Shown piece after piece: positions 3,623 through 36,740 of a DNA stretch of 41,528 nt. Origin of the DNA: a virus. The position numbers and the translations under genes are program-made. The stretch lies in IMG/VR virus record IMGVR_UViG_3300005253_000390, positions 1 to 41,528 of that record; one strand, 5' to 3'. The notes beneath the pieces were generated by a model. The model made no database searches and was not told the DNA's origin. It saw only the letters and a program-made list of their open reading frames with translations. Positions within the stretch are counted from its first letter, which is position 1; each line of letters begins with the position of its first letter.

Positions 3623-3647
3623 TTAAGCCCTAAAAGAGGAATGAGCA

Positions 3648-3866: not shown

Positions 3867-3869
3867 GCA

Positions 3870-4193: not shown

Positions 4194-4196
4194 GCG

Positions 4197-4397: not shown

Positions 4398-4400
4398 GCA

Positions 4401-4685
4401 ATGACTGATAACGATAGACTGGGCGCGGCTATTGAACAGCATGTATCTAAACTGGAAGCCGAGAATGAGAAGTTGAAAGAATCTTTAAGCGCTTCAAACC
4501 ACGACTACGCAGAATTGATGAAAGAGCGAACTGCTTATATAACTGTTTATATAGCCGAGAACGCCAAATTAAAGGCAGCCCTGCTCGAATTTGGACGCCA
4601 CGGCGAGGGCTGCCCACATCAATGGGATGAGAAATATCGTTGTAAATGCGGCTGGAAAGAAACACTGGATGCCCTGAAGGACTAA
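4401..4685 (+). CDS. Coiled-coil/Cys-motif microprotein, family member 5 (94 aa)
   Basis: This member joins the MTDNDRLGAAIEQHVSKLEA leader (bases 4416-4465 are copy C of the repeat), a central helix, a second coiled-coil phrase (AENAKLKAALLEF) and a C-terminal zinc-like tail (GEGCPH ... CKCGWKETLDAL). It therefore combines the N-terminus of members 1 and 3 with the C-terminus of member 4, as expected if the cluster evolved by module shuffling. Confidence 0.7.
   Translation: MTDNDRLGAAIEQHVSKLEAENEKLKESLSASNHDYAELMKERTAYITVYIAENAKLKAALLEFGRHGEGCPHQWDEKYRCKCGWKETLDALKD
4416..4465 (+). repeat. 50-bp coding repeat, copy C
   Basis: It differs from copy A (3431-3480) by a single silent G/A change in the first 40 bases. 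It has the same reading frame and the same position relative to the ATG. Confidence 0.9.
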
Positions 4686-9501: not shown

Positions 9502-9662
9502 AAGAGATAAAATGGCCAGCCCACCTTAGCAAGCCAGCCATTAGGAGGAGAAAATGTATAGCATCGAGCTTTATAATCGTATCCGGTTGTCGAGCTATTG
9601 ACAATCTCCACTCAGTATCTTGTCTTCGTAGTCCAGTAGTTCCTCGAATCTGCCTTCTGTAA
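9498..9662 (+). other. Convergent arm junction with two weak + strand ORFs
   Basis: A frame from ATG 9498 (MKEIKWPAHLSKPAIRRRK ..., 54 codons) overlaps the previous stop as ATGA but runs antisense into the outer-spanin gene. A shorter frame from 9554 (MYSIELYNRIRLSSY) has a strong AGGAGGAG site. At most one is likely real. No clear bidirectional terminator is visible where the early and late arms meet near 9600. Confidence 0.3.
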
Positions 9663-9837
9663 TTAAGATGCCGCGAAACTTTGCGGGTTCGTTAGGTTCA
9701 AGCAAGACTATTCTTCGAGAATTATCTATATAAACTGAGGTCGGCGAGGATTTGCAGCCGTTTATTATCAAGCTCGTTGTAAGTATCCATAAGCATATCC
9801 TCGTCCTCTGCGCTTTTAGCATGTTTAATTTCCTCAA
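9595..9837 (-). CDS. Outer-membrane spanin lipoprotein (Rz1-like)
   Basis: The 80-residue product starts with a basic N-region and hydrophobic stretch (RICLWILTTSLIINGC) ending in a lipobox-like I-N-G-C, so Cys of SLIINGCKSS would be lipidated. The mature part is short and hydrophilic. The gene overlaps the coiled-coil inner-membrane gene 9722-9988 by 116 bases in another frame, the classic Rz/Rz1 layout. Spanin pairs fuse inner and outer membranes in the final lysis step, which implies a diderm host. An alternative start is the Met six residues in. Confidence 0.7.
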   Translation of the reverse strand: MRKLNMLKAQRTRICLWILTTSLIINGCKSSPTSVYIDNSRRIVLLEPNEPAKFRGILITEGRFEELLDYEDKILSGDCQ

Positions 9838-9988
9838 GTTTGTCCTTCATCTCTGTGCGCACCGTCCGCAACCTCTTTTTGAGTTCCCGTGTTTTTGCAT
9901 CAGTGCTCCAATACTTTTTGAATAGCCACAACGCCAAAGCTGCCATACTGCCGATAGCGATAATAATAGCTTTAGTCGTCATCTTCAA
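9722..9988 (-). CDS. Inner-membrane spanin (Rz-like), 88 aa
   Basis: An N-terminal membrane anchor (about residues 4-23, KAIIIAIGSMAALALWLF) is followed by a long charged coiled coil (about 30-85) that would cross the periplasm. It overlaps the lipoprotein gene as i-spanin genes do. Its 5' end overlaps the upstream gene by 17 bases. It is the penultimate gene of the late transcript, which suits a lysis function. Confidence 0.7.
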   Translation of the reverse strand: MKMTTKAIIIAIGSMAALALWLFKKYWSTDAKTRELKKRLRTVRTEMKDKLEEIKHAKSAEDEDMLMDTYNELDNKRLQILADLSLYR

Positions 9989-16428: not shown

Positions 16429-19400
16429 CTACAGTTCTAACCAGTTACTTCCATGCTTCATAAAGACTAAATGCTGCTTGGTTGTGGCCATATAAGAAAA
16501 GTTCGGTGCAGTATGAACCGTAAAGTGCATGTCCATAATTTCAACCGCCTTATTAGCTGAAGTAGTTATCTCTAAAACCAGTCCTTGTGCATCGTCTCCT
16601 GATATGTCTGTATTCAGGTTAACTCTTTTATAGGCAAAGGATTCTCCGTTGACTAACTCATCCTCTGTACTGTAATCGGTGTTCATATTGGCTAATACCG
16701 TACCGCCCGGTACAAATCCTGATGCCGCAAAAGTCCAGTCCGCAGAGCTATGATGAAATAATCTTAAATTAAATCCTGAATCACTCGCACCTGCAAGTCC
16801 TACAACCTCAAGAACATTTATGGTAAACGCCTGATTGCCAAAATCTTCGTACTTGGTACAGCCATAATTGATGTCCAGATTAAAGGTTACAGGAGTACCG
16901 CTTGCCGTGGCTAAGGCAATGGTTACCTGTCCTATCCATTTCTCTGTAGTTTCAACATAATCATCAGTGGATAATGTAGTAATATCAGCTACTAAAGTAA
17001 CGGTTTGTGATGCCGCCCTAACACCATCATCATCTATAGTTGTGCCGGCAACTGTTATTTTAATTACCCCTGTATTTACTGTTCCTGGTCCCCCGGCTAC
17101 TATTCCAATATGACAGGCAGAAGCTGAATTTGCCGCACTATGTGTTACCGAAGGCGATATCTGTGTTAAAGCAGCCTCTGTGGCTGACCAGTTATAATAC
17201 CCACCCGAATAAAATGTCCCAGAAGAACCGGAAGGGGAAGAAAAACTGTAAGATTTAGATTCTACTTGATGTTTAAGAAATATATTACCTACACCGTGGC
17301 GAATACGGACTGTTCGGTCATCATTTGCAGGTAAAATAAGAAGTATCTCTCCTGCGTTACCCCCGTTAATGGTATCTAAGTCGTCATTGGCAGCATTGCC
17401 CTCTGTATCAATGCTATGATGCCCTTTTGTGACTGTTACTTCGCCACTGACGATAGTTAATTCGGTGGCGCTATTAAAATGCAGGCCTCCTAAGTCAGTG
17501 ATGGTCTCCCCATTCATTTTTATATCATCGGCAAACTCAAACCTGTCCTCATCCTCCATCCATGTTATTGCACCTGAATTTGTAGTGCCAATCCAATTCG
17601 AGACCAAATCAGTATCTACACCTCCGTTAAAATTTAGCGTCCCGGCGTTCACTCTCAATGATTGTGAAGCTACCGTGGAATTGAAAACGCCATAGATAAG
17701 ACAATCGGTCAATTCGGCAGCAATGCTACTTCGATTTATATTATCTATAATTAAAAGGTCTGAATTTGTTGTTTGATTAAATCCTGATTCATGGCCGAGA
17801 AAAACATTCCTATCTCCTGTTGTTGCTGACTTTCCGCTTTCGTGACCAATCATTACATTTTGGCGCGCATCAGTTAAAACTGTTCCCGCTGTTGAGCCAA
17901 TTAAGACATTCTGCAAAATTGTTGCGGCCCCACCACCGAATCCCGCCAGATTTCCTATCGCAATATTATCATCACTTGAGCCAGGCACGTTGGCAAGTGC
18001 TGATTTCCCAATTGCCATATTTCTATCTCCCCCCGTAATATCAAGGAGTGTAAATACCCCAACTCCTACATTATCTATTCCAGTAGTTAAGTTGAACATA
18101 CTTTTATATCCGATGGCCATATTTGAACGGCCAGAAGATACAAGTCTTAGTGTTTCACCTCCCAAGCCAATATTAAAGTTGGAGGTGCTGCCAACCGCGC
18201 CTTTCCCTGCACGAAAACCAACGAAAGTATTAAACATTCCATTGTTCCCGCCTCCTGTTGTAACTACATTTCCTCCTGCTTCAAAGCCTATTCCCACATT
18301 TTGAGAACCTGAGTCGGCAGCAAAAACATCTGCACCTAAAAAGAGATTATCTGTCCCATCATTAGCAAGAAATGTGGTGCCATCTACTGTAATAAGTTGT
18401 GTGTTATCGGTGAGGTTGATGAATGGAGTATCGATAGATGGCGAAACCGTCAACAGCCCACCAGCATCTATCGTACCATCTATATTGAGAACTAATTGCG
18501 TAGTATTGGTTCCGGTAACAAAACGCAAGGCCCTTACCGTGCCCCCAAACAGCTTATCGGCCTTTATCTCGAATATTGTCCCGCTGGCGAGGTAACCCAT
18601 AGACAGAAATTCTGCTGGGTCGCTACCGGACGGAGGCCCAAGAGCATACAAATTAAAAAGTACATTGTCCGTTCCGTCACTGTCTAAGGAAGATAGTTCG
18701 ATATTAAACGGAGTAGCGGCGGTCTGGCTTTGTATGGTCATTGCCGTTGAACGGTCTGAAAAGACATAGTCCTGTGTCAAGTCAAGGGTAAGAATATCAA
18801 ATGTGGCCGATACTGCGGTCAAAGTACCTACCGTAGTTGCGCCTGTAACATCGAGAGTGCCGGAAACAGCTAAGTCCTGCGATATAACTATATCGCCACT
18901 GGCTTTTATCTGGATAGCATCGTTATCGCTTACAGAGCCTAAGAATCGAGCATTACCTATGATAAGGTCATTAACAGTCATATTACCCGTAGTAGTGAGG
19001 TTTTCATCTCCGAAACTTATCGCCCCGCCCGAATCCGTTATCGAGCCACCCGTTAAAAGGAGAGTACCAACTGTTAAATCTCCTGCTATGTCTGTGTCTC
19101 CACGTTCATCAACATAAAAAACAGGAGTAGTATCTGCTACGTTCCAGACTGCAAAAAGACCTGTCATACCCCCAATAACAATATCTATATAATCTGTTCC
19201 TTTTATTCTAATTGCATCAGCACCATCAGGATTCTGCTCAGATACAAAGTCTCCAAATTCCAGCGATAAGTCCTGGCTAAGTACCACGTCACCATCAGCT
19301 TCAATTTGAATAGCGTCAGGGTCACTTACAGAGCCTAAATTGCCTGCGTTAGCTATGATTAAACTTGCGAATGTTGGAGTGGCGTCAGTTGTATAGTCTT

Positions 19401-20016
19401 GGTCTAATCTTGCACCCGCTTCGATGAAAAGAAACTCTCCGCCTGCTGCTGCCGACCAGTCTATCTCTCTGTCTGAACCACCCATATCTACCGTAAGGGT
19501 TCTGTCGGTAGAGACACCCGTATTTATAAAATTAAAAAAGACATGGGCATCATCATCAAAAGCAAGAAAACCTAATTTCCAGTTGTCGGTTTTTAATATT
19601 GTTCTTTCGCCCCCAGAAGTTAAGTGTTTTAACGAAAATAAAGCCTCAAGACCTGCAAAAGCACTCGGCAAACTCCATTCTATAGTACCTACTTTAATTA
19701 TCGAAGAGGCATCATTCTCAAGGTAGAATGTTTGACTCACACCTATTCCGTCTTGGCCCACATCATCATCGCCGAATCTTTCTAATCTGAATAGCTCTTT
19801 AACGGAACCACTTGGCGAATCACCTTTAGATATATACAAATGCACGTCCGGAAAAGAGGACGTGTTCAGTAGGCCGATTTTTACATTATCGCCGACATTA
19901 ACATCGGTAACGACATTAAGCCCTGCAGAAAGTTCTAAATCACCTGCTTCGCCGCAACAAAACGAAGCAAGGAATAAAACTATGCACCACGATATAAAAA
20001 TCCTCTTCTTTGCCAT
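16429..20016 (-). CDS. Giant fibre/adhesin-like protein with signal peptide, 1195 aa
   Basis: The N-terminus is Sec-signal-like: basic MAKKR, a hydrophobic core (IFISWCIVLFLASFCCG), then GEAGDL. The body is repetitive beta, with recurring IANAGNLGSVSDPDAIQI / IGNARFLGSVSDNDAIQI units and LDVTGATTVGTL-type shaft units. Residues about 570-745 contain YadA-head-like repeats (NVGIGFEAGG, NMAIGYKSMF, NMAIGKSALA, NIAIGNLAGF). The C-terminal ~300 residues look like a beta-sandwich receptor-binding head. It could be a tail fibre, but the signal sequence is unusual for a virion protein and would send it out of the cytoplasm. Confidence 0.75.
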   Translation of the reverse strand: MAKKRIFISWCIVLFLASFCCGEAGDLELSAGLNVVTDVNVGDNVKIGLLNTSSFPDVHLYISKGDSPSGSVKELFRLERFGDDDVGQDGIGVSQTFYLENDASSIIKVGTIEWSLPSAFAGLEALFSLKHLTSGGERTILKTDNWKLGFLAFDDDAHVFFNFINTGVSTDRTLTVDMGGSDREIDWSAAAGGEFLFIEAGARLDQDYTTDATPTFASLIIANAGNLGSVSDPDAIQIEADGDVVLSQDLSLEFGDFVSEQNPDGADAIRIKGTDYIDIVIGGMTGLFAVWNVADTTPVFYVDERGDTDIAGDLTVGTLLLTGGSITDSGGAISFGDENLTTTGNMTVNDLIIGNARFLGSVSDNDAIQIKASGDIVISQDLAVSGTLDVTGATTVGTLTAVSATFDILTLDLTQDYVFSDRSTAMTIQSQTAATPFNIELSSLDSDGTDNVLFNLYALGPPSGSDPAEFLSMGYLASGTIFEIKADKLFGGTVRALRFVTGTNTTQLVLNIDGTIDAGGLLTVSPSIDTPFINLTDNTQLITVDGTTFLANDGTDNLFLGADVFAADSGSQNVGIGFEAGGNVVTTGGGNNGMFNTFVGFRAGKGAVGSTSNFNIGLGGETLRLVSSGRSNMAIGYKSMFNLTTGIDNVGVGVFTLLDITGGDRNMAIGKSALANVPGSSDDNIAIGNLAGFGGGAATILQNVLIGSTAGTVLTDARQNVMIGHESGKSATTGDRNVFLGHESGFNQTTNSDLLIIDNINRSSIAAELTDCLIYGVFNSTVASQSLRVNAGTLNFNGGVDTDLVSNWIGTTNSGAITWMEDEDRFEFADDIKMNGETITDLGGLHFNSATELTIVSGEVTVTKGHHSIDTEGNAANDDLDTINGGNAGEILLILPANDDRTVRIRHGVGNIFLKHQVESKSYSFSSPSGSSGTFYSGGYYNWSATEAALTQISPSVTHSAANSASACHIGIVAGGPGTVNTGVIKITVAGTTIDDDGVRAASQTVTLVADITTLSTDDYVETTEKWIGQVTIALATASGTPVTFNLDINYGCTKYEDFGNQAFTINVLEVVGLAGASDSGFNLRLFHHSSADWTFAASGFVPGGTVLANMNTDYSTEDELVNGESFAYKRVNLNTDISGDDAQGLVLEITTSANKAVEIMDMHFTVHTAPNFSYMATTKQHLVFMKHGSNWLEL

Positions 20017-20276
20017 GCGCCACTTTCTCGGTGTTCTAATTGTATATCATCGCCGACTATAATCAGTCTCCAATTTCCATCCCCGCCCGCTACATTACCT
20101 TCTTTGATAATTTCAAGAAAATCATCGTTTGCGACACTTAGTAAAAAATTAATCGCAAAAACCTGCCGTGAATATAGCTCTTTCGTAATCCACCGAGTAT
20201 ATCTCGGCATGTAATCCTGCAATGTTTCGTCCGGTTGCGGGTCTGGAAAATCTTTGCTTGTAACGAGTTTATCAAT
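19980..20276 (-). CDS. Tail-associated protein, 80-98 aa, start uncertain (TTG or AUU)
   Basis: The C-terminal part (DYMPRYTRWITKELYSRQ through WQRRGFLYRGA) is clear. The frame stays open upstream to a TGA, giving VIDKLVTSKDFPDPQPDETL before the first methionines, but that stretch has no ATG, GTG or TTG except TTG at 20222. An ATT at 20276 overlaps the nozzle stop and lies ten bases after AAGGGCGG, so AUU initiation or a frameshift from the nozzle gene is possible. The 3' end overlaps the fibre gene by 37 bases. Likely a tail accessory protein. Confidence 0.55.
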   Translation of the reverse strand: MDKLVTSKDFPDPQPDETLQDYMPRYTRWITKELYSRQVFAINFLLSVANDDFLEIIKEGNVAGGDGNWRLIIVGDDIQLEHRESGAWQRRGFLYRGA

Positions 20277-22393
20277 TACGCCACCGCCCTTCTGCCCGCT
20301 GGCTCAAAGTAAGGTTGAAACGCATGAATCCTCGGACGGTTAGAGGAAGCATTATTGGTAATCTCGAACCTGTGAAAGAAGCCTACGGCGTTTACATATA
20401 CCCTATACCACGCAATCGAATCCGAACCTTCGACCGCCCTGCACGTAATAGTCACCGTCTGAAATGCGCTTGTATCGGTATTCAAATAGCTAAGAACGTC
20501 AAAGGTTATATTCGCGTCTACATCGCAGAGGAAATCTATCCAGCCCAATCTTGCTTCTCTACCCTCTTTTGTGTACGGATTCATCTGGACGCCAATCGCC
20601 TCAAACTCAATAGCAACGCCAGCATCGGCTCCACTGGTATTCAATTGATAAACTATTCCATTATCACTGCCAAATAAAGTAGTTGGATAACCAGACTCGG
20701 CAGTACGGGCGTTCCACGGGTCGGTATAATCTTCCCATGCAATGTCCTGCGCCCACGTCAAATCACTTTCTACCGCTGACTTGCCTATAGTATGAATAGA
20801 GTTTGCCAGTTTATAAGTCGAATACCCAAGGTTCTCGTAATTAAATGTCAGTATGCTATCGGGATAAGTATTACCGTCGGCGTTTGCAGAGGCCCCGGCG
20901 GCGGCATAGGCTTCTAAAATCAGCCTTTCTTCCTTCATCACTACGCCCTGAGTAAATAACCGTGAATTTTGTATCCAATCCAAGGTAAATTCAGGTATCT
21001 CGGAATCGGCGGCCCTTATCTCCCGACTATCGGAAATATTCAATCTCGTAGTCCCTAACGCTATCTGCCTTGCGCCCTGAGTAACCAGGGAGTTTTGGGC
21101 CACACTACCTTCGTTAGCTGATATAAATTCCCATTCAAAGGGTTGTGCCGTATCACCCGTATAAGCCAATCGCCATGTACTCTTTTCACACCATACATAT
21201 AAGTCGTTCAGCAAAAAATCTGCCGAAACTATTACATCCTGAGTTGGAATGTCTCGGAAATTAGCCGTGGGCCACGATTGCGGGTCTTTGATAGTACACC
21301 ATCGGGCGCGCTGTTTGAAATCCGTACCGTCTTCGATTGTGCTTAATATAACGAGCCTCTCCCTGTAAACGAATATCAACCTGCAACTGGTAATATTGTT
21401 CTTATCGTTGGCGTCGCCTATATCCACGGTCAACCGTGATAAGTTCGTGCCATCATATTGCTGGATAGGGTCATTATTATTAGTAATATAAGTTCTTGAA
21501 CTTCCGGCAAGGTTCCAGCTTGTTGCCTGAAAATAGTTCGTATTATCACCCGTAAAAGCATCGTCGGAATTAGCACCCTCTGATTGACCGGCTATATTGG
21601 AAGGAGTTCCGTTTTCCTGCAGTTCCTCGTTTGCATTAAAGGGCCCTCCCGTTACCCCGCCTTGTGTAAAAATTATCGTTCCCCTTGCGTCATTGCCTGC
21701 GACCGTACCTGTATCAAGAATAAGAGCCGCTACAACGCCTGTAGCACTACTATCAGCCCCCTTAATAGTGTCGTTTACAGCAGGTGTGTAATTCTGCGCA
21801 GAACCACCAACATCAACTTTACCTATATATCGTATCTTGTTCCGGGTCAGGTCTATAAACCGCTCCTGAGAAGCCGTGCCGGAAGATTCATCTGATACAT
21901 AAGCCTTTGCAACTTCGATATTATCTGCATCTATTCTTTCAACAGTAAACGTGCCGTTATAGCTCGTTGTGCCGGATATAGTTACAACATCTTTAGGCTC
22001 TGTTGCCGACTGGAAGCCATGAGCGGTAATCTCGATATTGATTCTACTACCTGCATTCGCTGTGGTTATTGCGATAATTGTATTACCAACACTTGCACCT
22101 GTAAGGTATCTGTTTAATCTCTCTTTGTCGGCCACTAAAAGGTTCTCGGTCGCATTGTCCTGATGGTTCAATACGCCCGTTACGGCATTAGTTGACAGGG
22201 AGGCAACCTCCGTAGAAGTAACCACTTTTACAATTTGACCAAACTTGGCATAGCCCCTGCGCTTCTCTAAAACACCATCTTTGATATGACCATTCTTAAG
22301 TGTCTCGAAAGCGTCCTCTGGCGATAGCCAGGGATGCCGCCTCAGACTCTTGCCGGTTTTCATATCTGCAATTAAAAAAGGTTTGAAAGCCAT
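20276..22393 (-). CDS. Tail nozzle / stabilisation-type hub protein, 705 aa
   Basis: The sequence resembles the nozzle or gp10-type proteins of short-tailed phages: GVLEKRRGYAKFGQI near residue 40 (the usual 'rRpGy.k' start), an inserted beta domain (about 100-230), then propeller-like strands with RLIFVYRERLVILSTIEDG, RWCTIKDPQSW, DLYVWCEKSTWRL, GTTRLNISDSREI and TTLFGSDNGIVYQLN. The C-terminus ends in AFQPYFEPAGRR. These proteins close the tail tube and hold DNA in the head. The gene lies between fibre genes, at the expected place downstream of the adaptor. Confidence 0.75.
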   Translation of the reverse strand: MAFKPFLIADMKTGKSLRRHPWLSPEDAFETLKNGHIKDGVLEKRRGYAKFGQIVKVVTSTEVASLSTNAVTGVLNHQDNATENLLVADKERLNRYLTGASVGNTIIAITTANAGSRINIEITAHGFQSATEPKDVVTISGTTSYNGTFTVERIDADNIEVAKAYVSDESSGTASQERFIDLTRNKIRYIGKVDVGGSAQNYTPAVNDTIKGADSSATGVVAALILDTGTVAGNDARGTIIFTQGGVTGGPFNANEELQENGTPSNIAGQSEGANSDDAFTGDNTNYFQATSWNLAGSSRTYITNNNDPIQQYDGTNLSRLTVDIGDANDKNNITSCRLIFVYRERLVILSTIEDGTDFKQRARWCTIKDPQSWPTANFRDIPTQDVIVSADFLLNDLYVWCEKSTWRLAYTGDTAQPFEWEFISANEGSVAQNSLVTQGARQIALGTTRLNISDSREIRAADSEIPEFTLDWIQNSRLFTQGVVMKEERLILEAYAAAGASANADGNTYPDSILTFNYENLGYSTYKLANSIHTIGKSAVESDLTWAQDIAWEDYTDPWNARTAESGYPTTLFGSDNGIVYQLNTSGADAGVAIEFEAIGVQMNPYTKEGREARLGWIDFLCDVDANITFDVLSYLNTDTSAFQTVTITCRAVEGSDSIAWYRVYVNAVGFFHRFEITNNASSNRPRIHAFQPYFEPAGRRAVA

Positions 22394-23557
22394 TTATCGC
22401 TTCCAGAATTCAGCTATTGTATAAACTTCTGAACCAAAATTAGACGCTTCGCCAAATCCGTTACTTGCCTGAGTAGTGCCGCCTTGATGTTGGACTTCAA
22501 GAGCTTGGGAACCCGCTACTGTGAATCTGCCGACTATAAAAGAACGAGTAACATCCGATGCTCCGCCACTGATGGAAAACTCGGACGTTCCAGTTAAAAG
22601 GGTAGTCCCACCTGTTGTGTTCCGTAATCTTGTCTGATGCCTATCGACATCTATCGCCGGACAGCTAATTCGGCATTCATAAGTACCGGCTGACAGAGTT
22701 ATTTGGTTTGAACTAAGTGCGGCAAGGCTTCCCGTGTCGGTATCTTCGGTGTTCAAAGTCCTTGTTTGCCAGGATCCGCTCGTAAAACCTCCACCGTCAG
22801 TATTTTGGGACTTTACATCGGAGATTTTTATGTAAGCATTTCCGGCATCTACGTAAGCCTTAATACTCTGTTGCGAAGCTACTTTGTCAGCAGCATCAGA
22901 ACCCATCGCATCTTCATCGAGAAAACCGCCGTTTGTAGTTTCGTAGGTGGTCGGGTCGATATTTCCTGTAACATCAAGCGTCCCCGCAACAACCGTATTA
23001 CCTGTTGCTCCAGCCACAGTGAATTTATTGGTATTGAAAGTAATATCAGAAGTAGCAGAGCCAATTAAGTCGTCTCCTGCGCCTAAGGTAATCGAGCCGT
23101 TAAAAGTCGAAGTGCCTGATACCGTAAATCCGGCACTGCTAAATAAGTCGCCGTCTTTGGTGAATTGAAGCTGGACCCCATCTTCAGATGTAAAGGCCAT
23201 TTCCGGCTGTGAACCACCGTCTATGACCTGCAAGTGCCCTTCGTTAGTCGATGAAGCGCCCGCCGCCGCTTCTTCTTGGAAAGTTATAACTTCATGCTTG
23301 CCCGATTGCACCCCGGCTGAAGCATTAACAAATTCATGGTCTTGGTTTATTGCCGTCACCAAATCCGACCAATTCGTTAATATCTCTGGCTGTGAATTGC
23401 GCAAAGAAGTAGCGGCGGATGGTTTGTCCTTATCGAAAACCTGAACAAACACAACAGGTAAAATATTTCTTATCTGTTGAGAATATCTAAAGCCGACAAA
23501 AACCGAAGACCAAACACAAAGCAGGGCCAAGAAAAGAGTCGTTTTATTCTTTTTCAT
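22394..23557 (-). CDS. Fibre protein with N-terminal hydrophobic signal, 387 aa
   Basis: The start is placed at ATG 23557 (MKKNKTTLFLALLCVWSSVF), 11 bases after AGGAGG; longer in-frame starts exist. The signal-like N-terminus is followed by a region typical of phage fibre bases (NQDHEFVNASAGVQSGKHEV), a shaft (TLDVTGNIDPTTYET, VASQQSIKAYVDAGNAY), and a C-terminal beta-sandwich (about 260-387) rich in AGTYECRISCPAID and SRSF-type strands. The C-terminus looks like a receptor-binding head, yet the N-terminus would target it to the membrane or periplasm. Confidence 0.7.
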   Translation of the reverse strand: MKKNKTTLFLALLCVWSSVFVGFRYSQQIRNILPVVFVQVFDKDKPSAATSLRNSQPEILTNWSDLVTAINQDHEFVNASAGVQSGKHEVITFQEEAAAGASSTNEGHLQVIDGGSQPEMAFTSEDGVQLQFTKDGDLFSSAGFTVSGTSTFNGSITLGAGDDLIGSATSDITFNTNKFTVAGATGNTVVAGTLDVTGNIDPTTYETTNGGFLDEDAMGSDAADKVASQQSIKAYVDAGNAYIKISDVKSQNTDGGGFTSGSWQTRTLNTEDTDTGSLAALSSNQITLSAGTYECRISCPAIDVDRHQTRLRNTTGGTTLLTGTSEFSISGGASDVTRSFIVGRFTVAGSQALEVQHQGGTTQASNGFGEASNFGSEVYTIAEFWKR

Positions 23558-23807
23558 TTTTACCAATACCTCCTTTTGCCCTCTTGCGGCCATATATACC
23601 TACCAACGCACAACTAACAATAAGCATTTGCAATATCAAAATTCGTTGATTGCGAGAAGTTGCATAAGCCCAATCGCATAACTCCTCTGTTGTGAAGTCG
23701 TAATCAAGTGGCGGTATAGCAATTACCATCCACACCGTTAAGGCAATGAGTATTATTATTACTACTTGAGAGATTATTGTCAGGGATTTCCACCATCTCT
23801 TGTTCAT
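23544..23807 (-). CDS. Two-span membrane protein, 87 aa
   Basis: ATG at 23807 follows AAAGGA. Two hydrophobic spans are visible at about residues 10-31 (IISQVVIIILIALTVWMVI) and 55-73 (ILILQMLIVSCALVGIYG), separated by an acidic loop with one Cys (TTEELCDWAYA). The tail is basic. This is a class II holin-like topology, but the gene sits between two signal-bearing fibre genes rather than in the lysis cluster. It could instead help insert or anchor the exported fibre proteins. Confidence 0.6.
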   Translation of the reverse strand: MNKRWWKSLTIISQVVIIILIALTVWMVIAIPPLDYDFTTEELCDWAYATSRNQRILILQMLIVSCALVGIYGRKRAKGGIGKNEKE

Positions 23808-23808
23808 G

Positions 23809-24678
23809 TTAATATCCTTTACCGAGTAATTTTACATCGTGCGAAGCCTCACTTACCAGAACCACCAGAAAATCCGCACCTCCAACATCAAGTCTCGCTT
23901 CGGCATTTGTATCGTCTGCCGGACTGGTTATCGTCCACGAAGAACCCCATGCCTTTGCCGTTAAAACAACTGCATCAGCCATTTCAAAGCCTATCAAGTC
24001 AGATGCGGCGTGAGTAAGAACATTGGCACTACCCCTGTCAAGACGGTCGGAACTAATAGTTTCGGAGTTTGTAAATGTGCCGGTTTTTGACCTGTATTGT
24101 ATAGTGCCCGCAGCATCGCCAGCGGCGAAAGAGCCAGAAGCGATGGATACAGTAGTCAAGACAACCGCTGTTTCGGCGGAAGTATTGCCTGTAAAAGTAT
24201 CGCCCGGCTGTGGGACATAAGGCCCCCCGGAAGTATATGTTATCTGGTAGTATAGCGAAACCTGAGTGCCGGTAGTAAAAACTAATTGACCTGCATAAGA
24301 CAACTCGCAGTCAGCGGTACTCTCCTGTGATGTTCTTGTTCCCAGGTAAATCTGGTATGTCTGTGCATCGTTACCTGTTATGCCTACACTTCTAAATCGT
24401 ATACCATTCCAGCTTGCGGGTATAATAAAAGTAGATATTTCACCATCGCCACTTGAGTCCGCCGCTATTGCTACCTCTAATATTAATTTTGTTCTTTCGC
24501 CAACAGCCAAAGCTGTCGGCTCAGTTCCAGCACTGGTAGTCTCATCGATAACAACCCAGCCGTCCTGCATAGTGTGTAAGACATTGCCTACCACTTCCTG
24601 TTTCAGGGTTTCTGTTCTTAGAGCGGCACAGATAAATACAAAAACCAATAACACTGATAATATGCTAAACTTTTTCAT
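23809..24678 (-). CDS. Beta-rich exported protein with signal peptide, 289 aa
   Basis: The N-terminus MKKFSILSVLLVFVFICAAL is a clear Sec-type signal. The mature part is beta-rich: a region with WVVIDETTSAGTEPTALAVG, a central domain (FIIPASWNGIRFRSVGI, SLYYQITYTSGGPYVPQPGD), and Gly/Thr/Ser-rich strands up to a short basic end. It looks like a fibre or receptor-binding module. SD-type AAGGAG precedes the ATG. It is one of a run of four neighbouring genes with membrane-targeting N-termini. Confidence 0.65.
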   Translation of the reverse strand: MKKFSILSVLLVFVFICAALRTETLKQEVVGNVLHTMQDGWVVIDETTSAGTEPTALAVGERTKLILEVAIAADSSGDGEISTFIIPASWNGIRFRSVGITGNDAQTYQIYLGTRTSQESTADCELSYAGQLVFTTGTQVSLYYQITYTSGGPYVPQPGDTFTGNTSAETAVVLTTVSIASGSFAAGDAAGTIQYRSKTGTFTNSETISSDRLDRGSANVLTHAASDLIGFEMADAVVLTAKAWGSSWTITSPADDTNAEARLDVGGADFLVVLVSEASHDVKLLGKGY

Positions 24679-24689
24679 TTTTAATCTCC

Positions 24690-25055
24690 TTATGGGTTAG
24701 CGTCTGGTGTCATAATAATAAAGTTGGAACCGTCATAAGCCAGAGACGCTATCCCGGAAGCATCTATATAGCTGTTGACGGGGTCAGCGCCTGAAAGAGT
24801 TTTCAGTGACTGCGCTCCTAAACCGTTTATATTAAGCGTGCAAGCCCCAGTATTGTCTGTTACCGGATTGAGCAAAACAAATAACCCTGCATCGTAACCG
24901 CCAATTCCGTCTATTTGGGCAAGATAGGTATCGTTAGACGCAGTATCAACGGCATAATATGCCAAAGCCGTTACAGGGTTGTATCTCCGGCTTATCGTAC
25001 CCATGGAACACAAAACAAGTACAGTAGCCATAATCGTTATAAATGTTCTTTTCAT
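24690..25055 (-). CDS. Small fibre-domain protein with signal peptide, 121 aa
   Basis: The N-terminus MKRTFITIMATVLVLCSMGT is signal-like. The rest has the pattern of a phage fibre tip repeat: GLFVLLNPVTDNTGACTLNI, NGLGAQSLKTLSGADPVNSY, and DGSNFIIMTPDANP at the end. In other phages the same module is part of large tail fibres; here it stands alone behind a signal. AAAGGAG precedes the ATG. Confidence 0.65.
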   Translation of the reverse strand: MKRTFITIMATVLVLCSMGTISRRYNPVTALAYYAVDTASNDTYLAQIDGIGGYDAGLFVLLNPVTDNTGACTLNINGLGAQSLKTLSGADPVNSYIDASGIASLAYDGSNFIIMTPDANP

Positions 25056-25056
25056 A

Positions 25057-26142
25057 TTAGAATCTCCTTTGCACTACTTGCCCTAAAAGTCTTTTAATTT
25101 TATCAGGTCTAATCTTACTCATCATGCTTTCTGCATAAGCGGCCACACTGGTTATAGAATCAGCAGGGCCGTTTCTTACCAAATACTCCAAAGCGGATTT
25201 GCCCACTATTGCAGGCCCCCATTTTATATCGTCAGGTACAGCCTCGTCATCGGCAAAAGCCGTTGGTCTGTCAGCAATAGACAAAGCCTCTAATTCATAT
25301 ATATCGTTCGGCTTTGGCCTAACGTAGAGATTCTGGCCGAATAGTAACGCAGTGGTAGGTTCGGCCCTATTCTCAAACTTGCCGTCTGTAAACGTATCAG
25401 TCACATTAGACGCATCCAGAGCCGTTGTAGCAGGCGTAAACGCCCCGTCAGACTTGGTTACGGTAACATAACCCATATATGCCGAGTCCGAATCCGAAGC
25501 AACCAGAGCGTCAAGGGCTATTCTTGGCGTTGCGTAGCCCGTACCGTTGTCTGCGGCGGCTGCTACGGTAATATCGCCGTCAGCATCTATCTTTAGCGAC
25601 CATGCACCGTAAAGACCTGCCGGAATCGCGTCTCCTGTTAAAGCAACTTCGCTGGACGATTTCGAGTATGATTTCTTTTGAATCTCATAACTAAAATCGC
25701 TGTGCTTGACTTTTGCAGTATCACTCGAACCTATCACTAAAGTAGGGTCTGTAATGAACTGCTCATCCTTAAATTGGGTATGATGAAAACTTGTTCTTTG
25801 CCCGGTAAAATGCGCAAAATGGTGGTGATGATGGTCTACGCCAAAGAATAGCTCTCTGTCTCTATATAAAACAATTTGCCTGCCATTTATCGTTACGGGG
25901 TCGTCAAGACGGTCTACGTTCTGGGCGAGAGAATAAACACCGTCATCCGTTGCTGATAATGCCTGAGTAAAGAATACATTGAACTCATCTACCTTGGCAT
26001 CGTGGGAAAATCGATTGACGTAATAATCGATAATCTCCTGGTCAACAACGGCATTGGAAGTCTGACTGGTCGATTTCCTGCCGGTCAACTCGCGCCATAG
26101 AGTACGCATTTCAGATAATTTCCAGGTTTTAGCTGCAGTCAT
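25057..26142 (-). CDS. Head-tail adaptor-like protein with natural His cluster, 361 aa
   Basis: The N-terminus (SEMRTLWRELTGRKSTSQTSN, then DQEIIDYYVNRFSHD) and C-terminus (IVGKSALEYLVRNGPADSI ... RPDKIKRLLGQVV) follow the form of short-tail adaptor (gp4/gp11-type tubular A) proteins that join portal to nozzle. The middle (about 150-270) is a beta insertion. A run of five His in DHHHHHFAHF at about residue 103, with more His nearby, may bind metal. The gene abuts the O-antigen-polymerase-like gene (TAAATG). Confidence 0.6.
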   Translation of the reverse strand: MTAAKTWKLSEMRTLWRELTGRKSTSQTSNAVVDQEIIDYYVNRFSHDAKVDEFNVFFTQALSATDDGVYSLAQNVDRLDDPVTINGRQIVLYRDRELFFGVDHHHHHFAHFTGQRTSFHHTQFKDEQFITDPTLVIGSSDTAKVKHSDFSYEIQKKSYSKSSSEVALTGDAIPAGLYGAWSLKIDADGDITVAAAADNGTGYATPRIALDALVASDSDSAYMGYVTVTKSDGAFTPATTALDASNVTDTFTDGKFENRAEPTTALLFGQNLYVRPKPNDIYELEALSIADRPTAFADDEAVPDDIKWGPAIVGKSALEYLVRNGPADSITSVAAYAESMMSKIRPDKIKRLLGQVVQRRF

Positions 26143-27621
26143 TTACTGCACCTTTGCTAAATTTAATTTTGCATGTTTGAAATCAGGACATATACGCAAA
26201 GCCTCGGCAAAATACTTTTGTGCTGCCAATGGTTCTCTTTCGATTTGCTTTGCAAGCCCCATACCATTTAATACATATACATTATGCGGATTGTATTTAT
26301 GAGCTATCTTAAAATCATTAGCTGCTAATCGATATTGTTTCGATTCAAAATAAGAAGTCCCGCGCCACCATTGCCAGGGGATACCTGTATGGCTGACCGT
26401 TGAAAATGGAGAATGAGCCTTAAATAATTCCATGACTTGCGTACCAGTTTTTGCATACCTTACTTTTTTATCCCAAAAAGAAGCTTTGAGCCTGAAACTA
26501 AAAACAACTAAAATGAATATCATAACAGTTAGTAATATCTTGGGCTGTTGTATCGACCTCATTGGACAGGCAATCGCTATAAAGTTAGCCAGCATTAATG
26601 ACGAAAACGGTCTTGCGTGCGGAGCAGAAAAGGAAGCTATTGCTATATATCCGCACAATGCAATTAATAAATATTTACTTCGCCGAGCATAGTACAAACA
26701 GGTTGCAAATATCCCGATATAACAAACGAGTCCTAATGCACCAATTTCAGAACAAATCCATACAAAATCATTATGTGGGAATCTAAACGTATCTTTAATA
26801 AATGCCCCCGGATAATTAATACCAGCGGCATATTTAGGAAACATTATCCACCAATTTCCCGAACCTACGCCCAAAGGATTATCGATTATCATGCCCTTAG
26901 TAAAATTCCATTGTTCCAATCTCTGGCTCAAAGAAGTCGTGTGCAATAACCCTCTATTCGTATAAGCAAATAACGATAAAACAATACAAATCGAAGTTAA
27001 TATTAACCAACGTCTTTTAGATAACATTGCAAGGACAAATGAACATAAAACAATCGCTAATATTGCCGACCTTGACCTTAATAAGAAAATTTGTATGACC
27101 ATCAATGTTAAAATAACGATGGCTGGCTTTTTCCAAAACTTATTAGCTATCGCATAATAGCAAAACGGAATTACAAAGAATTGAGCGTGCGCCCATGTAT
27201 TTTTCTGCCTCATCAAGCCTCGGCATATTCCAAAGTTGCCTTGTAAATAATAATCGTACCAAAAATAAACTACGAACACCGCACCAAGTATAATCATTGT
27301 CTTGGCAAGTAATTTCTTATCTATTTTTACGACTGATATATACGTGACCATCAACACTATTCTTAATACCGAGAATAGCCACTCGGCTTTGTTTATTGCG
27401 TACATTCCCGACAACAAGGAGATAGCTAAAAACCCTAACAAGAACCAATGGATAAAGCCTATTCGTATTTCTTTAGAGCAATAGACAAGAATTATCGTCA
27501 TAACACACCAAATGATATGACGAGGCATTAAAGCGCTATCAAACAATAATGTCACTAAAACCGTGCCACAGAGAAAAATACCTATCGGCAAAATATACTT
27601 ATCAATCTTATTGTAAACCAT
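26143..27621 (-). CDS. O-antigen polymerase/ligase (Wzy_C/WaaL)-like membrane protein with C-terminal TPRs, 492 aa
   Basis: Residues 1-360 contain roughly ten to twelve membrane spans. Signature parts of the O-antigen ligase/polymerase superfamily are visible: RSRSAILAIVLC in a middle helix, NPLGVGSGNWWIMFPKY in the large periplasmic loop, and FPHNDFVWICSEIGALGLVC after it. Residues about 415-490 form two TPR-like units (YRLAANDFKIAHKYNPHN, AAQKYFAEALRICPDFKHA). Members polymerise or attach surface polysaccharide in the inner membrane, facing the periplasm. Here it lies inside the virion operon with GGAG before its ATG, so it should be made late. Serotype change or receptor masking is the likely theme. 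Confidence 0.8.
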   Translation of the reverse strand: MVYNKIDKYILPIGIFLCGTVLVTLLFDSALMPRHIIWCVMTIILVYCSKEIRIGFIHWFLLGFLAISLLSGMYAINKAEWLFSVLRIVLMVTYISVVKIDKKLLAKTMIILGAVFVVYFWYDYYLQGNFGICRGLMRQKNTWAHAQFFVIPFCYYAIANKFWKKPAIVILTLMVIQIFLLRSRSAILAIVLCSFVLAMLSKRRWLILTSICIVLSLFAYTNRGLLHTTSLSQRLEQWNFTKGMIIDNPLGVGSGNWWIMFPKYAAGINYPGAFIKDTFRFPHNDFVWICSEIGALGLVCYIGIFATCLYYARRSKYLLIALCGYIAIASFSAPHARPFSSLMLANFIAIACPMRSIQQPKILLTVMIFILVVFSFRLKASFWDKKVRYAKTGTQVMELFKAHSPFSTVSHTGIPWQWWRGTSYFESKQYRLAANDFKIAHKYNPHNVYVLNGMGLAKQIEREPLAAQKYFAEALRICPDFKHAKLNLAKVQ

Positions 27622-27633
27622 TCGACTCCGCCG

Positions 27634-27741
27634 CTAAAAGAACCACGAGATAAATTCCTTTACTCCGAGTATCATCATAAAAGAAACAAAGACACAGCCT
27701 GCCAAAAAAAAAGTAATCAACAGCTTTTCTCTTTTTGTCAT
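27634..27741 (-). CDS. Single-span membrane microprotein, 35 aa
   Basis: The frame MTKREKLLITFFLAGCVFVS ... MILGVKEFISWFF has one membrane span. An in-frame ATG two codons upstream (27747) is an alternative start. It lies between the terminator-like hairpin at 27756 and the O-antigen-polymerase-like gene. No strong ribosome binding site is visible, so support is moderate. Confidence 0.4.
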   Translation of the reverse strand: MTKREKLLITFFLAGCVFVSFMMILGVKEFISWFF

Positions 27742-27755
27742 TACCATAAAGGTAA

Positions 27756-27780
27756 GCGGGGGTTATAAAACAACCCCCGC
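27756..27780 (-). terminator. Strong GC hairpin after the beta-helix gene
   Basis: GCGGGGGTT (27756-27764) and AACCCCCGC (27772-27780) form a perfect 9-bp stem with a 7-base loop, 11 bases beyond the stop of the 27792 gene. The flank on the - strand (TTACCTTT) is only moderately T-rich. It may be a partial terminator setting a step-down in expression after the capsid genes. Confidence 0.6.
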
Positions 27781-27791
27781 CCTATTTTGAA

Positions 27792-28883
27792 TTAGCCGTC
27801 TGTATGAGCCGACACAGAACCAGCCGCACTAATTAAGCCAGCTTCACGTGTACCAGAGAACTCATCACCATCAGTATCAGTAACAAAGTTGTTCATAAAT
27901 ACCATGTCGTCGCCAACACGCATTAACAAAGCCGTTGCCACATCTGAAACGATTTCGTTATTGGAGACATAACCACCAGTGCCATCGGCACAAACTATAA
28001 CTGCAACGTTGTTAATCTCTCCGTCGCCACCCATAGTGCCTTGAAACAGCAGGTTTCGCCTGATAATCAAGTCATCAGAATTAGCAGCTGCAGAAGTAAT
28101 TGCTTCGACTATACAACCTACTGAACAATCGCCTATAATGTCGTTATCTTGAATGGTAGCACCAGAGACGCCAGTCAGATGTATTGCCTGGACAGCACCA
28201 GCGGCACCGGCTCGGAACGTACATTTTTCAATCACAGCATTATGAGCACCATTCTCAACGCTGATAGCAGTATTGAACTCATCAGTTCCAACAGCATCGC
28301 CTTCGTCTCGGAAGTCGTTATTAATAATCCGGCAATTTTCTCCCGTAATAACTAATCCTGAAACAACGGCGGTGACCGAAGCCCTATGACGTAGATTGAT
28401 TAGTGTTACGTCATCAGCACTTACGATAAACGTACTTGTTGCCGCTGTATAATCAAAATTCGGGGCTTGTTTGCCTTGACCAAGACCAATGATAGTTACG
28501 CCATCAATATCAACTGTTACGCCAGCGGCGGCAATATCTTCATCGGAGTTTTGTATCACATAGATTCTATCACCACGGTCAGCAGTTACATCGCTTCCGC
28601 TATCAAACGCATCGTCAAGAGTAGGCCATGCAGTGGCAGGAGAAGTGCCTGTCGAGGTTGCTGAACCACCAGCTGCACTATCAACATAAAAAACCTTGCC
28701 TGTGCCTGCATTAAACAATCCCGCATTTGCAATGTCGGTATTCAGGGTGTCAAACCAGCCCCGCAATAACTGGTCGAAATTACCAGCGTTTACATTTCTA
28801 AAGTTTATCTCGGTAATATCAACCGTGCCAAACGCTACTGAGGACATAAACAAAATCAATAAACAAATAAATAAACGCTTCAT
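27792..28883 (-). CDS. Right-handed beta-helix protein with signal peptide, 363 aa
   Basis: A textbook signal peptide (MKRLFICLLILFMSSVAFG) precedes a short linker (NFDQLLRGWFDTLNTDIANA) and a KVFYVDSAAGGSATSTGTSP start typical of pectate-lyase-like parallel beta-helices. Rungs follow: VTIIGLGQG, VTLINLRHRASV, CRIINNDFRDEG, AVIEKCTFRAG, ATIQDNDIIGD, LIIRRNLLFQG, YVSNNEIVSD and VFMNNFVTDT. It could be a surface depolymerase, adhesin or decoration. No catalytic triad was identified. The ATG overlaps the upstream stop (TAATG). Confidence 0.7.
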   Translation of the reverse strand: MKRLFICLLILFMSSVAFGTVDITEINFRNVNAGNFDQLLRGWFDTLNTDIANAGLFNAGTGKVFYVDSAAGGSATSTGTSPATAWPTLDDAFDSGSDVTADRGDRIYVIQNSDEDIAAAGVTVDIDGVTIIGLGQGKQAPNFDYTAATSTFIVSADDVTLINLRHRASVTAVVSGLVITGENCRIINNDFRDEGDAVGTDEFNTAISVENGAHNAVIEKCTFRAGAAGAVQAIHLTGVSGATIQDNDIIGDCSVGCIVEAITSAAANSDDLIIRRNLLFQGTMGGDGEINNVAVIVCADGTGGYVSNNEIVSDVATALLMRVGDDMVFMNNFVTDTDGDEFSGTREAGLISAAGSVSAHTDG

Positions 28884-32366: not shown

Positions 32367-32864
32367 TTATGCTTTTAAGAGTTTTACAATCTTATCTATA
32401 TCCACCTTATTCATTATTTTTGGTTTAGGTTTAACTTCCAACGTGTGTTCATTTACTTCCTTCCACAAACTATGGCTATCAGAGACTTTCGTACAAATAA
32501 TTGATTTTCTTTTATTCCTGTATTTTAATACTTGGCCCACATAATGCTGTGGCCCGGAACCGGGAATACACTTATACGTTCCATTGTCTTCAAGTAACAT
32601 TGAATCCCATTCATATTCATATTCATATTTGTCATTGATAATTACTGGTTCTCCTCTTAATCGAGTACATCTGTCACAGGGGCATTTAACATCGCCCCAC
32701 CTGCGCCATTTATATTTTATGCCTGAAGGCTCAATAGAATCTTCAACGCCTGTGAATGCTGGTACAATCGGCGAACAATTTGGTTTAGCCTTACTTGGCA
32801 CAAACACCGCAAATACACCTCCGGCAGCAGCAAAACATCTTTGGATGAAAGTTCGTCTATTCAT
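32367..32864 (-). CDS. Twin-arginine-signal protein, about 165 aa
   Basis: I prefer ATG 32864, overlapping the upstream stop as ATGA; a GTG at 32876 adds four residues. The N-terminus MNRRTFIQRCFAAAGGVFAV has the Tat pattern (N-R-R-T-F-I-Q plus a moderately hydrophobic h-region) and ends in VPSKAKPN, a good cleavage site. The mature part has a Cys cluster (VKCPCDRCTRLRG) and further Cys, suggesting a metal-bound folded domain exported by Tat. A KWRRWG phrase is shared with the capsid protein. No family recognised. A Tat substrate in a head-gene cluster is very unusual. Confidence 0.65.
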   Translation of the reverse strand: MNRRTFIQRCFAAAGGVFAVFVPSKAKPNCSPIVPAFTGVEDSIEPSGIKYKWRRWGDVKCPCDRCTRLRGEPVIINDKYEYEYEWDSMLLEDNGTYKCIPGSGPQHYVGQVLKYRNKRKSIICTKVSDSHSLWKEVNEHTLEVKPKPKIMNKVDIDKIVKLLKA

Positions 32865-34469: not shown

Positions 34470-34577
34470 TTAGCCTCCAAGTTCTTTCGCGTTATTTCTG
34501 CCTCTCGTATGCGACCTGCTTCTATGGCTAAATGGCCACGACAAATACAATCCTATTAACCAAATATAATATTTCAT
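34470..34577 (-). CDS. Membrane-inserting microprotein, 35 aa
   Basis: MKYYIWLIGLYLSWPF forms a short hydrophobic N-terminus, followed by a basic tail. The ATG overlaps the portal stop (ATGA), and the tail carries the GGAGG site for the next gene. The tight coupling supports translation. Confidence 0.5.
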   Translation of the reverse strand: MKYYIWLIGLYLSWPFSHRSRSHTRGRNNAKELGG

Positions 34578-36553
34578 GGTTTAGCTACCTGTGTCTGTTT
34601 ATCTTGTGCTATTTGCATCCTGACTTCTTCCTTAACTAAGGCAATGAGAGGTTCGGCACTTAACTTCTGGGCCTGGGCCAACGTCTTCATTCTATTCAAA
34701 GGTATCTCCGACCGCTTTTCCCGTGCGTCCGCCATGTTCTCCTGTGCCTGTGAAATCTGTACGGCAGTCAAACCCTGAGTCAGTTTGTCAGCGGACTGTT
34801 GGGACTGTAATTGGGCCTGCTGCTGCTGCTGCCTCGACTGGATGGCCTTTTGAATGGCCTGTAATGTCGGGGTCTTAAACTGCATCGGAGAGGCTTTGAC
34901 TAACATGTCGGCTGTAATGATACCCCTAAACTCGTCCGGCATTTCCAAGAGAAGGCTCTTGAGTTCCTGATAGTACATATTCTGCTGACTGTCAGTTAAT
35001 AGACCTTCGGTAGGCGCACAATCAAATCTCGATAAATCATCGTCGTAAAATCCTTGCGCAGGTTCCTCGTTGATTATCTTGCGTATACGGGTAGGATCGT
35101 AATTAACCTGAACAATCTGAACCTGCTTTTTGCCGAAATCGCTTTTAGAGCCTCTAAGATTCTGGAACATCCATCCTTGCGCGGTCAGGGCCTTGCCTGT
35201 CCGGTAGACATGAAGTACACCGGATATTTCCTTGTTCTTTTCGTCAGTACCAAGTATCTCTTGATTAAGGCCACCAACCTCCGACTCGTCTCTATTTATA
35301 ATCTCTAACATAGTAAAAACCGATTGAGGAACTTCCGAGGCGGGCATTTGTTTGAAAATCTGCTCTAACAACATTTCATCCGGCGTATCTTCATTAACTT
35401 GCAGATTTATCCCCTGACCGCTCAGGTAAGTATCTTCAGGGTTCATCAAATGCTTGCTTCTGGTTAATTTTATACCTTGAATCTGGCTTTCGATTATGTC
35501 CATTGCCTGATTTATCTTGCGGTTATACATTCGCTGAGGGTCACGAAGGCCGCGAGTAAATGCCTGTAATTTTAGTTCAGTCCTGGGTTGTTCGGGACAC
35601 CACATACCATGAAACCACGTATAATTATAGTCACGTATTCTCATGGGATTATCGCCTTCCCACAAAAATTCGTCGTCAAGAAGTATCGTCAACCTAATCT
35701 TGTCCTTAATATCCCTGAACTTTACCAGGACAGGAGCGCCGTCCGGTGTTCTGAAATTCTGTAAGAGCTGGTTTGCTAAATTTTCATCTCCCCTCGCTTC
35801 GTCTCTGAGAAATTCCTTAAAAGTCTTCTGCTTGCCGGTAAGACGGTTCTGGACAACAGAAACCTCTTCGGTAGTCCTGTGCCACCATTGCTCGAATAAC
35901 CGTTTCTTCGCCTTGTTCATCATTGTCGGGGAACCTTGAAACGGCCAGCGACTCGTATGAGTCAAGGGATTGATTGATTCAATCTCGTCGGCGCGGGTAG
36001 GAACAAGCATCTTTGCCTTATCGGTGGAAATCCATTGCCCGGTAAGAATGTCGCCGCAATCGGAAAGGTCCTCTTTAGTGAGTCCGTGGTCTAATAAGAA
36101 CTGGTTCCATCCCAACCTGCCGTATTGTATTATTCCCTGTCTGTCCCGCCACGATTCCACTAAATTAGAACCTTCAACCAGAGTACCCCACTTGAAAGCC
36201 GCACTCATCATATTATAACCGCCGTGCCTGGCCATCATACTCATTAAGACACCCGTGTGCTGATTGCAGGCCTGGTCTTCTACTTCATCAAAATTGCCTT
36301 GCGGGCCTATTTTTAATATATGGCGGTTGCGGATTTCGTAGCCGTGCAAAAGATTGACCTGTCTCCCTATCTTATCGATTGTATGAAGCAGTCTGTTCTG
36401 TCGGTCTGCCCTCTGCATTTCTTCGTAAGTATGCTGGGCCTTTAGATAGTAGTCGAGGTCGAGACACGCCTGCTCGTTAAACGGACGCCATGCGGTCTCG
36501 TTTATCTCGTAAACATCGTGAAACTCGGATGTTGTTGTCTCGTCGTTAGGCAT
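34574..36553 (-). CDS. Portal protein (P22-type), 659 aa
   Basis: Length and motif order match podophage portals: N-terminal helices with LDYYLKAQHTYEEMQRADRQ, RQVNLLHGYEIRNRHI near 65-80, EDQACNQHTGVLMSM, AFKWGTLVEGSNLVES, wing-region DEIESINPLTHTSRW, MRIRDYNYTWFHGMWCPEQP, GLRDPQRMYNRKINQAMDII and EVGGLNQEILGTDEKNKEIS. A Gln-rich stretch near 575-600 precedes the C-terminal helices. AAGGTGG lies before the ATG. It follows the terminase and one small gene, the usual packaging-gene order. Confidence 0.85.
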   Translation of the reverse strand: MPNDETTTSEFHDVYEINETAWRPFNEQACLDLDYYLKAQHTYEEMQRADRQNRLLHTIDKIGRQVNLLHGYEIRNRHILKIGPQGNFDEVEDQACNQHTGVLMSMMARHGGYNMMSAAFKWGTLVEGSNLVESWRDRQGIIQYGRLGWNQFLLDHGLTKEDLSDCGDILTGQWISTDKAKMLVPTRADEIESINPLTHTSRWPFQGSPTMMNKAKKRLFEQWWHRTTEEVSVVQNRLTGKQKTFKEFLRDEARGDENLANQLLQNFRTPDGAPVLVKFRDIKDKIRLTILLDDEFLWEGDNPMRIRDYNYTWFHGMWCPEQPRTELKLQAFTRGLRDPQRMYNRKINQAMDIIESQIQGIKLTRSKHLMNPEDTYLSGQGINLQVNEDTPDEMLLEQIFKQMPASEVPQSVFTMLEIINRDESEVGGLNQEILGTDEKNKEISGVLHVYRTGKALTAQGWMFQNLRGSKSDFGKKQVQIVQVNYDPTRIRKIINEEPAQGFYDDDLSRFDCAPTEGLLTDSQQNMYYQELKSLLLEMPDEFRGIITADMLVKASPMQFKTPTLQAIQKAIQSRQQQQQAQLQSQQSADKLTQGLTAVQISQAQENMADAREKRSEIPLNRMKTLAQAQKLSAEPLIALVKEEVRMQIAQDKQTQVAKP

Positions 36554-36740
36554 GTATCCACCTTACACCTTCAATAGTTCCAACCTCACCTTCGCATTCA
36601 GGATAAGGCTGTTCATATCTTCTTTCCCATCGCTTTTTGTGTTGTTTGTGATAATAACGATTTCGGGGCGACAACTTTCCAATACATCTTATCAATGAAG
36701 CACTATTATAATATCTTGATAGGCTAACAAAGTCTTTCAT
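36546..36740 (-). CDS. Small basic protein between terminase and portal, 64 aa
   Basis: The start is set at ATG 36740 (MKDFVSLSRYYNSASLIRCI), overlapping the terminase stop as ATGA with GGAG upstream; a longer frame from 36767 lies inside the terminase gene. The middle is very basic (NRYYHKQHKKRWERRYEQP). The stop overlaps the portal start. No family recognised. Confidence 0.55.
   Translation of the reverse strand: MKDFVSLSRYYNSASLIRCIGKLSPRNRYYHKQHKKRWERRYEQPYPECEGEVGTIEGVRWIHA

Follow-up and report, generated by a model that had tools for sequence, protein, structure and literature searches.

The fibres and spikes of tailed phages are taken to fold and attach in the cytoplasm, and in vitro, P22 heads that are already complete can still accept tailspikes. 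Assembly of filamentous phage M13 takes place at the membrane, and the particle is extruded. Its receptor-binding virion protein, pIII, is described as being made with a signal sequence, as a pre-protein (PMC8310372). Phage lambda encodes the signal-bearing product Lom from a gene inside its tail operon (PMC12309495).

We analyzed the window, an entire stretch of 41,528 nt (41.5 kb) from an uncultured virus (record IMGVR_UViG_3300005253_000390). On the minus strand, the portal, coat (phrog_1357) and terminase genes follow the gene order of P22-like podoviruses. As in the P22 tail module (portal, gp4, gp10, gp26 and gp9 tailspike), a P22_portal family protein is present, and the order is portal, scaffold, coat, adaptor-like, stabilisation-like and late internal proteins, with fibre genes inserted between. 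The structural proteins of P22 lack signals (0 of 13 called by the rule given below), but the window's clade carries several signal-bearing fibre genes per genome. M13 pIII shares with the window fibres a signal on a virion receptor-binding protein, but the clade consists of tailed phages with a spanin-like gene pair. Lom and similar phage surface morons are also signal-bearing products of a tail operon, but Lom is an outer-membrane barrel, whereas the products of the clade are fibres that carry tail-fibre domains and an N-terminus of virion type.

No isolate is close to this P22-like podovirus: isolate matches for its coat protein (MCP) and portal reach only ∼20–29% identity, a figure that bears on closeness and not on type, and its tail protein had no match among 50,697 phage records. 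Searches of bacterial genomes for a host with the MCP or Wzy protein gave no match. An overlapping gene pair at 9595–9982 encodes a coiled-coil protein with an N-terminal transmembrane (TM) segment and a lipoprotein-like protein; the pair resembles spanins, which suggests a diderm host.

The window operon and its fibre genes

The genes considered here are:

34574..36553, minus strand: P22-like portal (PF16510, E=1e-38), which marks the phage type
28883..29029, minus strand: 48-aa ORF (MERVSFSETDTFGEVNKILNLLIDAHN...KGDK), overlapping the fibA start by 1 nt
27792..28883, minus strand: fibA, 363 aa, right-handed beta-helix with a Sec signal (fibre slot 1)
26143..27621, minus strand: Wzy_C (O-antigen ligase/polymerase) membrane protein, 492 aa, with C-terminal TPR (PF04932, E=4.9e-15)
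25057..26142, minus strand: conn, head-tail adaptor-like core protein without signal, conserved and syntenic in relatives (start of slot 2)
24690..25055, minus strand: fibB, 121 aa, Sec signal (SMG/TIS), weak PHROG match
23809..24678, minus strand: fibC, 289 aa, Sec signal, beta-rich
23544..23807, minus strand: tm87, protein with a two-TM hairpin, overlapping fibD
22394..23557, minus strand: fibD, 387-aa tail fibre (phrog_24210 tail fibre, 3.5e-36), hydrophobic signal without a clear cleavage site
23348..23440, minus strand: docking-type motif of fibD (VFDKDKPSAATSLRNSQPEILTNW...), corresponding to the start of signal-less orthologues
20276..22393, minus strand: tail, gp10-like stabilisation core protein without signal (end of slot 2)
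19980..20276, minus strand: ORF of ∼98 aa between tail and fibE, with an apparent ATT start (ATG in relative L002)
16429..20016, minus strand: fibE, 1195 aa, Sec signal (GEA/GDL) (fibre slot 3; phrog_6002, phrog_4636)

We infer the adaptor role of conn and the gp10-like stabilisation role of tail from gene position.

The initial annotation had described five products of this operon as fibre or beta-helix modules that begin with a basic n-region and a hydrophobic core, and had proposed their export, perhaps for receptor masking, a block to superinfection or a coat on released virions, with membrane anchoring as an alternative. The five genes do start at 28883, 25055, 24678, 23557 and 20016 on the minus strand; four of the starts are ATG with a good Shine-Dalgarno site, and 20016 has a weak site only. 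Start 23557 was favoured over the longer 23593 because of its strong Shine-Dalgarno site and smaller overlap with the preceding gene. The fibre or beta-helix assignment holds by family matches for fibA (Beta_helix, 5.5e-5, just under the curated cut-off), fibD and fibE, and less firmly for fibB; fibC matched no known family and no tail-fibre family or domain. The two fibE PHROGs are virion structural and tail spike families; its YadA-head-like repeats were read by eye and gave no Pfam match, and the C-terminal outer-membrane anchor of trimeric autotransporter adhesins was not found. The C-terminal half of fibD is 44% identical to a putative tail fibre of Sulfitobacter phage pCB2047-A, of the same phrog_24210 family, but neither that protein nor most other homologues from beyond the clade begin with a signal. 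Little weight was given to the structure models of fibC (beta-rich, pLDDT 64) and fibD (pLDDT 52, with a weakly TNF-like tip; best E 1.6e-3, cyanophage Pan3 needle 8.8e-3).

The N-termini, with predicted cleavage at the slash, are MKRLFICLLILFMSSVAFG/TVD for fibA (likely after AFG, residue 19), MKRTFITIMATVLVLCSMG/TIS for fibB, MKKFSILSVLLVFVFICAA/LRT for fibC and MAKKRIFISWCIVLFLASFCCGEA/GDL for fibE; that of fibD, MKKNKTTLFLALLCVWSSVFVGFRYSQ, has no good cleavage site. Their net charge is two or three, and the hydrophobic core spans 10–14 residues with a mean hydropathy of 2.5–3.4. In all five, the Sec (signal peptidase I) layout was found, a basic n-region followed by 9–15 uncharged hydrophobic residues. 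Small residues occupy positions −3 and −1 in fibA, fibB, fibC and fibE but not in fibD; a leader-peptidase site is plausible in four of the five proteins.

Signals were called by our own rule, not by SignalP. Among E. coli proteins, the rule found 17 of 18 exported ones and called as signal or lipoprotein 0 of 54 cytoplasmic and 2 of 15 inner-membrane ones. It called none of the 24 plus-strand (early) gene products of the window. With shuffled window proteins it fired in 0.9–1.4% of cases (1.4–1.8% for any N-terminal hydrophobic segment), too rarely for chance to account for five of five. An explanation by chance or by wrong start codons was rejected on the Shine-Dalgarno sites, the calibration, the shuffles and the relatives. 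Lipoprotein signals were also rejected, since no lipobox cysteine (signal peptidase II) was found in the five proteins. None of them has a later membrane segment or a surface anchor that we could find, and only fibA is somewhat enriched in cysteines (5 Cys), with no general trend that would indicate disulphides.

Signals in related genomes and their position ahead of the fibre N-terminus

Scans of IMG/VR yielded about twenty related contigs, 13 of which were counted as in-group genomes. Fibre genes occupy three slots: the first lies behind the coat, decoration and g29 genes, the second separates the adaptor-like gene from the stabilisation-like one, and the third follows the stabilisation-like gene. 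Across the 13 genomes, 44 of 72 slot genes of ≥115 aa, a set that includes Wzy, glycosyltransferase, GNAT (acetyltransferase-like) and other non-fibre genes, were signal-like vs. 1 of 91 core virion genes, and this one call came from a wrongly chosen start (Fisher p=2e-19, to be read as a guide only, because related sequences are not independent). Slot genes without a call were membrane Wzy, glycosyltransferase and acetyltransferase-like genes, a post-tail protein of ∼100–160 aa and a few fibres. In a more distant outgroup (L033–L035), 1 of 17 slot genes was called. The in-group contig L040 (MCP 79% identical) has fibres without signal in every slot seen, and L022 and L023 each carry signal-bearing and signal-less fibres in the same genome.

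The observation is thus confirmed and reaches beyond the window: most fibres of the relatives keep the hydrophobic N-terminus, with boundary motifs such as AFG, AFA, VSA and VYA, and the few orthologues without it start at or beside the mature boundary. Behind the signals lie diagnostic tail-fibre domains (Collar, PF07484, 2e-21, in L027 fibD; S74 chaperone, 3.1e-7, in an L023 fibre), beta-helices and ConA-like lectin domains. The combination of a signal and a docking segment had no match in isolate phages. The contig L007 (9536–10609) encodes a signal-bearing fibre (MVKKTIVIITILLCVVLCFAG/THD) between adaptor-like and tail-like genes; this virus is otherwise unlike the window, and the trait may therefore be wider than the clade.

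A conserved start, AFDKDKPAASTSLRNSNPEILANW, is common to the fibD family, and the tips behind it are unrelated (Collar in L027 and L029, weakly TNF-like in the window), the pattern of a conserved N-terminal segment with exchangeable C-terminal domains that marks Caudoviricetes fibres. In the signal-less fibD of L022, L023 and L032, the protein starts M-A-F-[DN]-K-D (M-AFDKDKP..), with the motif right after the initiator Met. In eleven other fibD proteins, the motif follows a signal, usually after G or A (e.g. GAFDKDKP..); the window and L002 have a 17-residue insert between the two. The more distant signal-less fibD of L029 starts MTLWDATKP, and the slot-2 protein of L040 has a related start (MAWDNTKPADNRKWDL) ahead of a Pect-lyase tailspike. 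Position −3 of fibD is often F or L, and the best-scoring site of our rule is not always at AFDKDKP. Mean identity of the docking motif is 73% among signal-bearing fibD and 60% among signal-less ones, which come from fewer and more divergent genomes. The motif is thus under no weaker constraint in signal-bearing copies, whereas the rest of fibD (28% identical) and the signal itself (26%) are free to vary. On a tree of the tail protein, well-supported branches require three or more changes in the presence of the fibD signal, and parsimony gives five.

The fibA family behaves similarly, with FG/EFQQINFANVQ in L026, M-AVKLNFAQIG in L040 and M-AQKINFESVK in L064; the slot-1 start of L040 (MAVKLNFAQIG) resembles mature fibA. 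Between the window and L002, identity is 29% in the signal part of fibA and 81% in its mature part, as expected if only the physical properties of the signal are under selection. The contrast is smaller in fibC (signal 74%, mature 86%). Since signal-less proteins start at or next to the mature boundary in both fibD and fibA, the signal is an add-on before a virion-type N-terminus. An internal start that would yield a second, cytoplasmic form of fibD was rejected because the codon is not conserved: two codons before the boundary, three of seven relatives without the insert have ATG, and the others have ATA, TTG or TTT.

Proposed export and attachment, and the rival explanations

These data suggest that the fibres leave the cytoplasm before joining the particle, which is unexpected for a tailed phage. 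The export proposed in the initial annotation gains support from the signal features, the restriction to fibre genes and the relatives; judged from the sequences, export of the fibres by Sec is quite probable. Sec export followed by attachment to the virion, probably at lysis, is the reading we favour, with a likelihood that we put just short of even. The virion-type N-terminus kept just after the signal favours virion proteins over free decoys, because a decoy that never binds the virion would not need to keep a docking end.

The P22-like podoviruses of this clade would make their receptor-binding fibres and beta-helix spikes as Sec pre-proteins, to be translocated into the periplasm during infection. 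Host leader peptidase would cut most of them, and the fibres would fold and assemble in the periplasm; once lysis proteins opened the envelope, they would meet and dock on heads assembled in the cytoplasm. We infer export, cleavage and attachment after export, and the domain architecture points to docking. A fuller version, in which assembly has two compartments (DNA-filled heads in the cytoplasm; Sec-exported, leader-peptidase-processed fibres docking at lysis) and the signal is gained or lost gene by gene with the docking end unchanged, is proposed tentatively, at somewhat less than an even chance. Export away from the capsid would be costly absent some benefit, and we name none; also against the model, the window fibD, with its 17-residue insert and no good site, may stay uncleaved.

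In the literature searched, which left most subscription journals outside, no description of exported tailed-phage fibres was found. If the model is true for the whole clade, fibre attachment would be spatially separate from head assembly; before joining the virion, the fibres could meet host glycans and the enzymes of the periplasm (disulphide formation, glycosylation); and co-infecting phages could swap fibres at lysis. It would also follow that signal-peptide matches in phage fibre genes should not be written off as annotation noise. With orthologues that have the signal and orthologues that lack it, the question is open to direct test in a laboratory strain.

In the main rival reading, that of receptor masking, the exported fibres would not be virion parts but would act at the host envelope. 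They would mask receptors, exclude superinfection, or cleave or remodel glycans, in concert with the products of the Wzy_C and glycosyltransferase genes in the same operons. A Wzy_C gene lies beside fibA in the window, L002, L003, L032 and L051, and a GT2 gene does so in L022; Wzy_C was not seen in the virion operon of the other relatives or of isolate phages. Lambda Lom, whose gene lies between tail genes, offers a precedent as a signal-bearing protein of the outer membrane (PMC12309495), and variation of the receptor-binding domains behind a kept N-terminus would also fit. We consider this reading unlikely, however, as the virion-type docking motif is strongly constrained in the signal-bearing forms, signal-bearing and signal-less fibres coexist in L022 and L023, and the window proteins lack a surface anchor or later TM segment. 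Wzy_C and glycosyltransferase genes occur in several of these operons, which would allow the fibres to be glycosylated in the periplasm or host glycans to be altered.

A second rival holds that the N-termini are uncleaved anchors in the inner membrane, with a peptide in the cytosol, a segment across the membrane and the fibre itself in the periplasm, for membrane-linked assembly or release. The fibD of the window and of several relatives lacks a canonical site, and W or P is kept in its hydrophobic part. In L061 (1912–3522), L039 (9186–11642) and L027 (3510–5882), the small Lys-rich ORF that otherwise precedes fibA is fused in frame to signal and fibre, which shifts the signal to an internal position, about residue 60–85; in the L027 fusion, the place where an internal start would be expected lacks a start codon. 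Moreover, the two-TM protein tm87 adjoins six of eleven signal-bearing fibD genes and no signal-less one. The fibD of the window and L002 and the three fusions may thus be membrane-anchored forms. As a general account this is decidedly improbable, given the small residues at −3 and −1 in most other fibres and the freedom of the fibA signal to vary.

That the N-termini do not serve export, with the helix buried in the virion or acting on the next host membrane at infection, agrees with the normally cytoplasmic assembly of virion fibres and with the loss of 20 N-terminal residues of P22 gp7 to a host protease (record note), so that N-terminal trimming alone is no proof of export, but we rate it as highly improbable in view of the classical n-h-c layout with a basic n-region, low signal conservation and small residues at −3 and −1, the repeated gain or loss of the fibD signal with the docking motif unchanged, and the occurrence of the same feature on unrelated fibre folds and not on core proteins.

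Other features of the window and its relatives

The 48-aa ORF accompanies signal-bearing fibA in the relatives; no small ORF was seen before fibA in L040 and L064. The topology of tm87 resembles that of a class II holin. The small ORF and tm87 may be partners of the exported proteins, although the numbers are small. In L026, tm87 and fibD have relocated jointly and lie behind the lyt gene.

Between the portal and scaffold genes, the window encodes a twin-arginine signal protein (32367–32864, minus strand; MNRRTFIQRCFAAAGG; TIGR01409 above cut-off). Tat-like or lipoprotein-like starts occur at a similar place in L028, L044/L045, L026, L039 and L037, and in L018 a Tat-like start precedes the terminase large subunit gene (TerL). 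The window TerL (36737–38899, minus strand) is split by an intein with an HNH endonuclease (PF14890, PF13392); the gene is shorter in L013, L018, L037 and L040. On the plus strand, several small early ORFs at 3416–4685 share the start MTDN[DA]RLGAAIEQHVSKL[EK]AEN and form a tandem family of coiled-coil-like proteins, and positions 7578–8438 encode a DUF5131 protein (PF07505, 2.3e-75).
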